Part shown: piece by piece, positions 7,224-10,446 of the stretch
Numbering within the stretch: the first letter of the stretch is position 1
How the letters are laid out: each line of letters opens with the position of its first letter
IMG/VR virus record: IMGVR_UViG_3300042554_000927
Coordinates: 1 to 25,719 of that record
DNA: 25,719 nt
Origin: a virus
Strand: one strand, 5' to 3'
The notes under the pieces: generated by a model
Told to the model about the DNA's origin: nothing
The model's input: the letters and a program-made list of their open reading frames with translations, nothing else
Databases searched by the model: none
Translations under genes and position numbers: made by a program

Positions 7224-7487
7224 ATGGGTAAATTCAAAGAGGCGCTAATCGAAATGGAAGCCATGATGATGGAGAAGCTTGACAGGCAATATAGGCCTTT
7301 CCAGCCAGCTACAAGGCTAGATGATGTCCAAGTACTAGGGGCAACCGTTAAGCCCGTGGAATCGCTTCTGGAGGGGCGTGAATGGGTTCCAAGTACGCAG
7401 ACTGACGTAACCCGTACATGGCGAAAGTTCGGCTGGAGGCCGATTGCTGAAATTGAAGCTGAAAAGGCTCTGAAGGGTGAAATGTGA
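7224..7487 (+). CDS. Conserved hypothetical early protein
   Basis: 87 residues. N-terminal amphipathic helix (MGKFKEALIEMEAMMMEKL), then an extended middle and a C-terminal segment TDVTRTWRKFGWRP (residues 60-73) of the sort I remember from short phage proteins of unknown function. Ribosome binding site CTGGAGGG lies seven bases before the ATG. The last codons overlap a GTG start for the membrane microprotein (GTGA), so the two are translationally coupled. Confidence 0.75.
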   Translation: MGKFKEALIEMEAMMMEKLDRQYRPFQPATRLDDVQVLGATVKPVESLLEGREWVPSTQTDVTRTWRKFGWRPIAEIEAEKALKGEM

Positions 7488-7609
7488 GTAGCACCTTTGA
7501 TATTGCTACATTGACAATCTTACTTGCGGGGGGATTTATGGGTGCTGGCCTGATGATTCTGTTCGGGGCGTGTTATGTAGTCTATTTGCTGTTGACATTT
7601 GATGATTAG
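7484..7609 (+). CDS. 41-residue membrane microprotein, GTG start
   Basis: Begins at GTG 7484-7486, overlapping the stop of the previous gene as GTGA, with AAGGG about seven bases upstream. The product has one long or two short hydrophobic segments (IATLTILLAGGFMGAGLMIL, then FGACYVVYLLLTF) and ends in two aspartates. The overlap and the fully hydrophobic, Gly-rich body support a real membrane peptide. Its 3' end carries a perfect TTGACA that may be the -35 of the RNA gene behind it. Function unknown. Confidence 0.55.
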   Translation: MSSTFDIATLTILLAGGFMGAGLMILFGACYVVYLLLTFDD

Positions 7610-7621
7610 ATAGATTATCGT
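7592..7621 (+). promoter_or_regulatory. Candidate promoter of the structured RNA
   Basis: Perfect -35 TTGACA (7592-7597) with a weak -10 TATCGT (7616-7621) at 18-base spacing; GATTAT (7613-7618) at 15 bases is an alternative. Transcription would start near 7628, just before the first hairpin of the RNA. The -10 is weak, so the call is tentative. Confidence 0.4.
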
Positions 7622-7627
7622 TGGCTT

Positions 7628-7730
7628 TGTCTATGTGACGGCATAGTCAGACTAAAGCCCTTTAGCTTTGGTTCTCACCCGAAAGGGAACGTGCCGTCAC
7701 ACGCGAGAGCCAAACCTAGAGGGCTTTTTT
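7628..7730 (+). ncRNA. Candidate small RNA with complementary (kissing) hairpin loops
   Basis: No credible coding frame. Hairpin A is CTATG-[TGACGG]-CATAG (7631-7646). A long stem pairs 7654-7676 with 7705-7727 (22 pairs including two G-U, one C/C mismatch). Its 28-base apical part holds CCC-GAAA-GGG (7678-7687, a GNRA tetraloop) and hairpin B, CGTG-[CCGTCA]-CACG (7690-7703). The loops of A and B are both six bases and exactly complementary, so they can form a loop-loop kiss; alternatively 7634-7643 can pair with 7692-7701 over ten bases. The long stem ends in a T6 run, giving a natural 3' end. A TTGACA box upstream fits its own promoter. Structure is read by eye; function unknown. Confidence 0.5.
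7654..7730 (+). terminator. Rightward intrinsic terminator (3' end of candidate sRNA)
   Basis: The base of the long stem, AAAGCCCTTTAG / CTAGAGGGCTTT, runs straight into TTTTTT (7725-7730; the first three are paired with AAA). This is a Rho-independent terminator layout for plus-strand RNA. It would end both the sRNA and any read-through from the early genes at 5521-7609, separating them from the recombination genes at 8037 onward. Confidence 0.65.
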
Positions 7731-7734
7731 GCGT

Positions 7735-7950
7735 TTAGACCGCTGTTCTGTGGGGGACTCAACCGCAGGGGGCAGGGACAACCGGTACTGTGGGAAAGCT
7801 CTGAGATACCGGAAAGGGCGGCGAAGCCAGCACCCTTGAGCGAAAGGCTGGCGAGTATGCGCGGCTCCGTCGAGCATTAAAGGAACTCGGTCAACCGTCT
7901 GAGGATGGCTGAGTTTCGCTCACCATCAAGCATACCAACGAAGTGATTAC
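7735..7950 (+). ncRNA. Second structured, apparently non-coding stretch
   Basis: GC-richer than the flanks and full of stems: CCGGTA / TACCGG (7782-7787 with 7807-7812); GCCAGC / GCTGGC (7826-7831 with 7847-7852); and a long-range GTATGC / GCATAC (7855-7860 with 7930-7935) closing a junction of three hairpins, GCTC-CGTC-GAGC (7864-7875), CTC..CGG-TCAA-CCG..GAG (7886-7903) and GATGG..TGAG-TTTCG-CTCA-CCATC (7904-7927). CCGTC occurs at 7867-7871 and 7895-7899, both able to pair with GACGG in hairpin A upstream. It could be a second domain of one longer RNA or a 5' leader for the genes downstream. I could not match it to a known RNA family. Confidence 0.4.
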
Positions 7951-7972
7951 CTAATGAAAGGAGAAAAATGAG

Positions 7973-8000
7973 TTGACTTAATCATACATATACCTTCTAA
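7973..8000 (+). promoter_or_regulatory. Candidate promoter for the recombination/replication genes
   Basis: TTGACT (7973-7978) is followed by TAATCAT. The 14 bases from TTGA to ATC match the early promoter at 5437 except at one or two positions (TTGAGTTAATCAT there, TTGACTTAATCAT here). The -10 is unclear: TTCTAA at 16-base spacing or TAATCT at 19. It sits between the structured RNA and the gene at 8037. Confidence 0.45.
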
Positions 8001-8036
8001 TCTTACTTACATTCCTAACTTTATATGGGGTACATC

Positions 8037-8279
8037 ATGGAATCACCAAAACTCTGCATTGATTGCAAGCATTACGTTGCTGTCCGTAACTGCAAGCACC
8101 CTTCCCTCGGTATTTCCCTAGTTGACGGAACACCCAACACCGATTTCTGCGCTGTTATGCGCTCATCTAATCGAAATTGTGGCGTAGACGCTGCATTGTT
8201 CGAACCTGTTGAGGCCGTTGTCTATGACCTCGCAGAGTTATTTCCTGAAGCACCATTTCCTAACCTTAGAAAGGACTAA
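8037..8279 (+). CDS. Cysteine-rich small phage protein, probable zinc binder
   Basis: 80 residues from the ATG at 8037; an in-frame ATG 12 bases upstream (8025) lacks a ribosome binding site, whereas GGGG lies about seven bases before 8037. Metal-ligand-like residues: C-I-D-C-K-H near the N-terminus, then C-K-H-P, then DFCAVMR and NCG. This C/H spacing recalls a small family in many phages (start of the form CxxC-x-H...CxHP). It may be a zinc-stabilised DNA- or protein-binding domain. TTCCTAAC occurs 17 bases before the ATG, as in the early genes. Confidence 0.75.
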   Translation: MESPKLCIDCKHYVAVRNCKHPSLGISLVDGTPNTDFCAVMRSSNRNCGVDAALFEPVEAVVYDLAELFPEAPFPNLRKD

Positions 8280-9637: not shown

Positions 9638-10446
9638 GCGCGCTTGTGCCACTAAACGACATCAAAGAAATGGCTGAAGTCGCAGCCAAGTCCAAAATGT
9701 TTGGCTTCAAATCACCGGATGAAGCAATGGCAATTATGTTGCTCTGTCAGGCTGAAAATATGCACCCTGCTATCGCTATGCGTGACTATCACGTTATTCA
9801 AGGCAGACCTGCATTGAAGGCCGATGCCATTCTTGCCCGTTTTCAACAAGCCGGAGGTAGCGTTAAATGGGAAACCTATACTGATGAATGTGTCACTGGT
9901 ATCTTTTCTCATCCTGCTGGCGGTAGTGTGCCTGTTACTTGGACATTCGATATGGCTAAGAAAATCGGGCTTACCAGCAAAGATAATTGGCGTAATTATC
10001 CTAGAGCAATGCTCAGAAGCCGTGTCGTATCCGAAGGGGTACGCACCGTATTCCCGGGATGCGTTATCGGGGTCTATACGGATGAAGAAACTGAGGACTT
10101 TGCAGCCAGAAAGAGTGCGCCTGTGCAAGCAGCGCCAAAGGATATGGGCGCAGTCGAAATCGTCGAGATTGCGGAAACGGACTTTCCGTTATATCTCCCT
10201 GATGGAACGTGCTATGCGTACTGTAAGGACTGGAAAGACTACACCGACCAGTATGTATCAATGGTAGCGTCCATCAATGCTTCAGCGAAACTGAATCCAG
10301 AGCAAAAGGGCGAGAAAATCCTGCAATGGGAACAGGCCAACGAAGCAACGGTCAAGAAGATGGATGCGCCGACAAGGATAGCGTTTGTCGCAGCGAAGAA
10401 CGGTGTAGACACCTTTGATGACTTGGAGGATGCGATTGAACGATAA
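9634..10446 (+). CDS. RecT-like single-strand annealing protein
   Basis: 270 residues. Recalls a family of phage RecT-like recombinases: MFGFKSPDEAMAIMLLCQ, RDYHVIQGRPALKADAIL (50-67), FSHPAGGS, and YPRAMLRSRVVSEGVRT (122-138), where the Arg-rich helix matches the conserved part. Such proteins coat single-stranded DNA made by the partner exonuclease and anneal it to complementary strands. The gene order exonuclease, small protein, annealase supports this. The C-terminal about 100 residues are more variable. The assignment is from remembered family pattern; a structure comparison would settle whether it is RecT, Red-beta-like or another annealase class. Confidence 0.75.
   Translation: MSALVPLNDIKEMAEVAAKSKMFGFKSPDEAMAIMLLCQAENMHPAIAMRDYHVIQGRPALKADAILARFQQAGGSVKWETYTDECVTGIFSHPAGGSVPVTWTFDMAKKIGLTSKDNWRNYPRAMLRSRVVSEGVRTVFPGCVIGVYTDEETEDFAARKSAPVQAAPKDMGAVEIVEIAETDFPLYLPDGTCYAYCKDWKDYTDQYVSMVASINASAKLNPEQKGEKILQWEQANEATVKKMDAPTRIAFVAAKNGVDTFDDLEDAIER

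Follow-up and report, generated by a model that had tools for sequence, protein, structure and literature searches.

The window analyzed here (the whole stretch of DNA, 25,719 nt) contains, at positions 7629–7730, a small RNA that its sequence predicts to be transcribed as a stand-alone noncoding unit. Comparison of this RNA with its relatives strongly supports a pairing beyond chance between two of its loops, one in a 5′ hairpin and the other at the tip of the terminator stem. As a whole, these observations are best explained, with fair probability, by an intramolecular kissing pseudoknot in an early, trans-acting phage RNA, which would probably bind a protein. The predicted features of the RNA and its surroundings are as follows.

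7592–7597, plus strand: −35 element, TTGACA.
7616–7621, plus strand: −10 element, TATCGT.
7629–7730, plus strand: small RNA, whole transcript unit; ends predicted from the promoter and the U-run.
7631–7646, plus strand: hairpin A, at the 5′ end of the RNA; CTATG (7631–7635), TGACGG (7636–7641), CATAG (7642–7646).
7636–7641, plus strand: loop A, TGACGG; partner is loop B, from covariation.
7647–7654, plus strand: linker from hairpin A to the main stem; class medians of 3.5–9.5 nt in classes I–VI.
7655–7676, plus strand: 5′ arm of the main stem.
7678–7687, plus strand: hairpin C, CCC-GAAA-GGG; relatives differ in its sequence and size.
7690–7703, plus strand: hairpin B, at the stem tip; CGTG (7690–7693), CCGTCA (7694–7699), CACG (7700–7703).
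7694–7699, plus strand: loop B, CCGTCA; partner is loop A, from covariation.
7705–7726, plus strand: 3′ arm of the main stem, which is the terminator stem.
7725–7730, plus strand: U-run (T6), intrinsic terminator tail; a T-run of at least 4 nt is found in nearly all relatives.
7740–7856, plus strand: neighboring separate RNA, Rfam RF02932 Betaproteobacteria-1; scored at 91.9 bits (gathering score, 49.4).

The small RNA is about 102 nt long. Hairpin A starts two nucleotides from its 5′ end, and the U-run closes the stem. An earlier note on this DNA had pointed to the complementary six-base loops of hairpins A and B, and these are exact reverse complements; the CCC-GAAA-GGG element at 7678–7687 and the T6 run at 7725–7730 are also both present. 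The stem, described there as having 22 pairs, consists of 21 pairs and one C·C mismatch, or of 22 pairs if A7654–T7727 is counted. The minimum free energy of the region 7620–7740 was −50.6 kcal/mol (z = −4.88), which was not equaled by any of 200 shuffles. A ten-base match noted previously, between TGTGACGGCA (7634–7643) and TGCCGTCACA (7692–7701), is real and has no further occurrence within the window. The small RNA scored 100.8 bits with covariance model R1, which includes the window sequence itself among its members. A coding role for the open reading frames overlapping the RNA was rejected as unconvincing; loop and linker lengths vary freely among the relatives.

A putative sigma-70-type promoter, TTGACA-18-TATCGT, with an 18-nt spacer and a consensus match of 10/12, is located at 7592–7621. 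Its position places the start of the RNA near G7629, rather than at 7628 as previously proposed. The TTGACA had been correctly recognized, but it begins 37 nt before the RNA and not about 30. A perfect TTGACA was picked before 30 of the 32 RNAs of classes II, III, IV, and IVb (see below), and a TATNNT-like hexamer precedes most homologues. Thus, both the promoter and the intrinsic terminator of the proposed stand-alone unit were found in the sequence.

About 90 distinct sequences of uncultured phages contain homologues of the small RNA. The relatives were gathered by the downstream exonuclease protein, by the terminase protein, by a loop-selected DNA pattern, and by a loop-free DNA pattern. 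Since the loci from the loop-selected pattern were chosen by loop sequence, the conservation of AGCTTTGGTT is partly a search bias; the conclusions rest on the exonuclease, terminase, and loop-free searches and on the 60 exonuclease loci described below. Loops were parsed in a total of 89 distinct sequences belonging to the window's class. Exactly complementary loops were counted by script in 81 of 86 sequences, whereas, in 10,000 shuffles that re-paired the loops among relatives, perfect matches averaged 7 of 86 and never exceeded 18. Three sequences left unparsed by the script (L015, L217, and L274) and three mis-parsed ones (L028, L292, and L303) have perfect loops when read by eye, bringing the total to about 87 of the 89 distinct sequences. 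Imperfect complementarity was found at three loci, namely L038 and L228, which share one sequence, and L245; the loops could still pair in part there.

More than 20 different loop pairs were found in the window's class, with loop lengths of 5, 6, or 7 nt and with both loops changing together. These pairs include TGACGG/CCGTCA, TAGCGG/CCGCTA, TGTCGG/CCGACA, TGTGCG/CGCACA, TGTGGG/CCCACA, TAACGG/CCGTTA, TACCGG/CCGGTA, and TGCCAG/CTGGCA, as well as 7-nt pairs such as TGTCAGG/CCTGACA and a single 5-nt pair, GGCAG/CTGCC. The stacking energies of the six-nucleotide loops are narrowly distributed (−12.4, sd 1.1, vs. −10.7, sd 2.2, for random ones). In bacterial genome contigs, serving as a control, the 49 matches to the same pattern never combined hairpin A with the 3′ arm, and no bacterial host or prophage carrying the small RNA was found in these contigs. 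BLAST searches with several classes revealed no homologues in GenBank phage records; one of these searches matched mainly tRNA-Ser.

Covariation of the loop–loop helix was analyzed in an alignment of 52 sequences (A1), which leaves out the known sequences with imperfect loops. In this alignment, the helix is Watson-Crick in 320 of 320 cells, and all seven loop pairs show compensatory changes, that is, changes on both sides. Neither the covariation score nor the percentage paired was reached in any of 500 shuffles, and slid controls were at most 59% paired. For hairpins A and B and the main stem, covariation support is lower or variation is almost absent; some of the 5′ arm was set by the search pattern itself. 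Because the loops change together from virus to virus, the contact has been kept by evolution. The kissing-loop interaction claimed earlier, for which covariation or conservation in related phages had been named as the check, is thus borne out: the loops co-vary and their contact is kept. Diversifying selection on the loops was also considered but is not shown, as in protein-selected loci the pairs of the loops change at about the same rate as those of the main stem (0.25 vs. 0.20 in class III, 0.21 vs. 0.21 in class IV, and 0 vs. 0.09 in class II).

In other phages, RNAs of unrelated sequence but of the same plan were found in the same place, upstream of the exonuclease. The shared plan includes a 5′ hairpin, the stem arms, hairpin C, and then a 7–8-nt strand complementary to the 5′ loop. 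This partner strand is a hairpin loop in the window's class and a plain bulge or an inter-hairpin strand elsewhere; classes II–IV have only a plain bulge where the window has hairpin B. The loop/strand pairs in these classes, whose labels are our own and were assigned by eye and by simple rules, include GTGGAAA/TTTCCAC, GTGAAGGT/ACCTTCAC, GTGATGGT/ACCATCAC, GTAGTGGT/ACCACTAC, GTAACGGT/ACCGTTAC, GTCGTGT/ACACGAC, GTCGTAC/GTACGAC, and GTCGAAC/GTTCGAC. Among the exonuclease loci chosen by protein alone and having at least 1300 nt upstream, 53 of 60 were positive for the plan, with 19 different loop words. Seven were called negative by the script; one of these (L021) is positive by eye, which makes 54 of 60. 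Despite full sequence replacement, the stem arms are mostly 22–26 nt long in all classes except class V (19 nt), as expected if stem length sets the geometry.

Class V has the loop pairs TTGGCGG/CCGCCAA, TTGGCAG/CTGCCAA, and TTGACGG/CCGTCAA. It shares a contig with class I in nine cases, on the same strand and 3–5 kb upstream. Representatives are located as follows.

L200 5312, L258 208, L262 2894, and L299 4430, plus strand: class V RNAs.
L240 2080 and others, reverse-strand coordinates: class V RNAs.

In L258, the class V RNA precedes a gene for a primosomal protein. One genome can carry two or three copies of the RNA, some of them of different classes, and such co-resident RNAs are orthogonal (own loop match of 6–7 nt, cross match of 2–4 nt). 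Class VI is represented by two sequences (L129 and MW202753.1) and class VII by a single example. With an 8-nt match, the detector gave 122 viral hits and none in bacterial control stretches; chance hits appeared in these controls at 6 nt and, in part, at 7 nt (19/357). In the cross-pairing control, matches of 7 nt occurred at a rate of 1.6% and those of at least 8 nt at 0.7%. Because of these chance-hit rates, isolated hits, including classes VI and VII, are less certain than classes I–V. The small RNAs may form a superfamily of at least six or seven sequence classes.

The small RNA is found with early replication and recombination modules. Its neighbors in the window are genes for a RecE-like exonuclease, RecT, and RusA. 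In a group of 36–38-kb sequences, the neighbors encode a primosomal protein, a primase, and a DnaB-like helicase, and in a group of about 62 kb they encode Erf, an exonuclease, and a helicase. Among 23 longer contigs, one strong RNA of the plan was found in 14 of the 16 identified through the exonuclease, near the exonuclease gene (G001–G011 and G013–G015). No strong RNA of the plan was detected in the seven contigs found through a related terminase alone (G017–G023), where divergent forms may escape the detector. A terminase was also identified; it is full-length and has an RNase H-like domain. In several relatives (L200 at 9980–10085, L217, L222, L239, and L292), the ATG of the downstream open reading frame follows immediately after the U-run; in L200, this frame encodes an HNH endonuclease, and the small RNA there is an additional class I copy whose loops differ.

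The RF02932 RNA is located directly after the terminator of the small RNA. In relatives, DNA conservation extends to about position 7934, past the 120-nt model. The two RNAs differ in that RF02932 is a separate structure, and the small RNA is not part of its model. RF02932 is next downstream in the window and in some relatives, and the 57-kb GenBank record MW202545.1 has an RNA of the plan just before its Betaproteobacteria-1 RNA. Many relatives of the small RNA lack RF02932; in L172, L177, L200, L207, L219, L256, L258, and others, it is replaced by an unnamed structured noncoding region of 250–330 nt. Analysis of 19 sequences of this region with RNAalifold revealed compensatory types in 19 of 37 pairs. 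No consistent complementarity was found between the small RNA and the downstream RNA. When RF02932 was used as a guide to the host, 5 of 401 genomes (family of Variovorax sp. PCZ-1) were above the cut-off, with no convincing small RNA within 1.5 kb upstream; RF02932-like RNAs from bacterial genomes of this family are represented by L358–L363. After the RF02932 region, at 7957–7976 of the window, AAAGGAG is followed by a two-codon frame, ATG AGT TGA; these bases could instead belong to a promoter (TTGACT).

A search with the 4227 families of Rfam 15 gave no match above the gathering threshold on 7629–7730, RF02932 (7740–7856) being the only match. Up to E = 10, the region 7400–8100 gave, besides RF02932, only weak chance matches to microRNAs or sRNAs, which on the small RNA itself were microRNA models hitting the hairpin, and the bacteriophage pRNA model RF00044 had no match there. 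Together with a search of the available literature, which turned up no description of such an RNA, this agrees with the earlier statement that no phage RNA of this design is known. The pRNAs of phi29-like phages are phage RNAs of about 100–170 nt that keep their structure while losing their sequence and have complementary unlike loops. The small RNA resembles them in its size of about 100 nt, in its complementary and covarying unlike loops, and in its low sequence conservation. In contrast to pRNA, it has no RF00044 match, is located in early modules of terminase-encoding phages, went undetected in relatives whose terminase is similar, and has a loop contact of 5–8 bp that involves a 5′ terminal hairpin.

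GOLLD and ROOL, encoded by phages or prophages, assemble into homo-oligomers by kissing loops that covariation supports; ROOL, GOLLD, and OLE RNAs are hundreds of nucleotides long and were shown by cryo-EM to be homo-oligomeric, and the function of GOLLD is unknown (PMC12286853). The small RNA is likewise noncoding and has a kissing loop backed by covariation, but it is about 100 nt long and has another plan. In its fully paired loops of 6–7 nt, it also resembles contacts of the RNAI/RNAII and TAR/TAR* type. ColE1 RNAI/RNAII, FinP, P4 CI, and P1 c4 are kissing antisense RNAs whose partner is another RNA. The small RNA differs from ColE1 RNAI/RNAII, FinP, CI, and c4 in having both partners in one transcript, with no second target found in its own contigs.

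According to the favored explanation, the early replication/recombination module of a large phage group encodes a noncoding RNA of about 100 nt, which would be transcribed from a sigma-70-type promoter of its own. Sequence comparison shows that the 5–8-nt loop of its 5′ hairpin pairs, strictly Watson-Crick, with a strand at the tip of the terminator stem of about 22–24 pairs. The 5′ hairpin would then fold back alongside the stem, giving a compact knot that has no free 5′ end and whose 3′ end is closed by the terminator; with its ends closed in this way, such an RNA should be stable. More weakly, the knot may be suggested to serve as a scaffold or decoy that binds a host or phage protein early in infection, and its loops would have no antisense action. 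This trans-acting, protein-binding role is a working guess; no single-stranded motif shared by all classes was identified. The switch between two folds considered in the earlier note is unsupported, because the ten-base pairing is pseudoknotted with the terminator stem, and hence does not compete with it, and because the complementarity in other classes (7–8 nt) stops near the loop ends.

Pairing in cis is likely from rough geometry, while the comparison of sequences fits pairing in trans equally. With A-form geometry taken as 2.8 Å per pair, a 5′ hairpin docked down a stem of 22–24 pairs reaches its partner with the observed linkers, the 4-nt linkers of class II being nearly taut. The alternative is intermolecular self-assembly, in which loop A of one copy would kiss loop B of another to form dimers, chains, or rings, in the manner of phi29 pRNA or the ROOL and GOLLD RNA cages. 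Complementary unlike loops are what head-to-tail assembly requires, the orthogonal loops of co-resident copies would keep assemblies apart, and the homo-oligomers of GOLLD and ROOL provide a precedent (PMC12286853). The narrow limits on stem length and on the distance from loop to stem are, on the other hand, directly explained by cis geometry. At equal pairing strength, a contact in cis also has a higher effective concentration than one in trans, a general argument in favor of cis, and self-assembly is possible but on balance unlikely. A cis-acting leader, that is, an attenuator or a put-like antitermination site at the start of the early operon, whose pseudoknot sets how frequently polymerase runs through the terminator into the RNA and genes beyond, is to be regarded as doubtful. 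The element does sit between the promoter and the noncoding leader region of the early operon, with a U-run in nearly all cases and usually one copy per operon. However, the sequence shows no antiterminator fold that would compete, the terminator stem stays intact when the loops pair, and a single genome may hold two or three copies that can differ in class.

Antisense RNAs that act through kissing loops are frequent among plasmids and phages, which lends some plausibility to an antisense or seed RNA in which one loop would be directed at an RNA of the phage or the host, the A–B pairing being its off state. Against this, loop words show no excess elsewhere in their own contigs (14 third copies vs. 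17.1 expected, 81 loci). Near relatives have different loops whose mutual complementarity persists, which leaves no way for a fixed host target to be tracked, and the action on a host RNA proposed earlier is improbable in that form; the antisense explanation as such is very unlikely. A pRNA-like packaging RNA working with the terminase would fit the size, the complementary unlike loops, and the low sequence conservation. It is nevertheless highly improbable, because the RNA follows the early modules (it is present in MW202545.1) and was not detected in the seven terminase-related contigs; additionally, the terminase is full-length with its RNase H-like domain, and Rfam gave no match other than RF02932 and weak chance hits. 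The element also has the form of a good terminator, but the explanation that it is a strong terminator only, with accidental upstream complementarity, is refuted by the compensatory changes in every loop pair and by the same plan in several classes and retains practically no probability.

The freely diverging loop code, which is self-complementary almost without exception, might be an address that limits assembly to RNAs of one kind, with a homo-oligomeric particle or an identity tag as the result. We consider this rather unlikely; if true, an identity tag would keep the replication modules of co-infecting phages apart. The covarying loops supply natural compensatory mutants, so that the contact, and cis vs. 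trans pairing, can be tested in vitro without a cultured host. Judging from Rfam 15 and the literature search, the RNA family is apparently undescribed, while the kissing loop as a building block is already known. The small RNA is a clear case of tertiary-contact covariation. It is common in its group of uncultured phages, has been kept through complete sequence replacement, and marks a so far unstudied early function of phages that is linked to the modules for replication and recombination.
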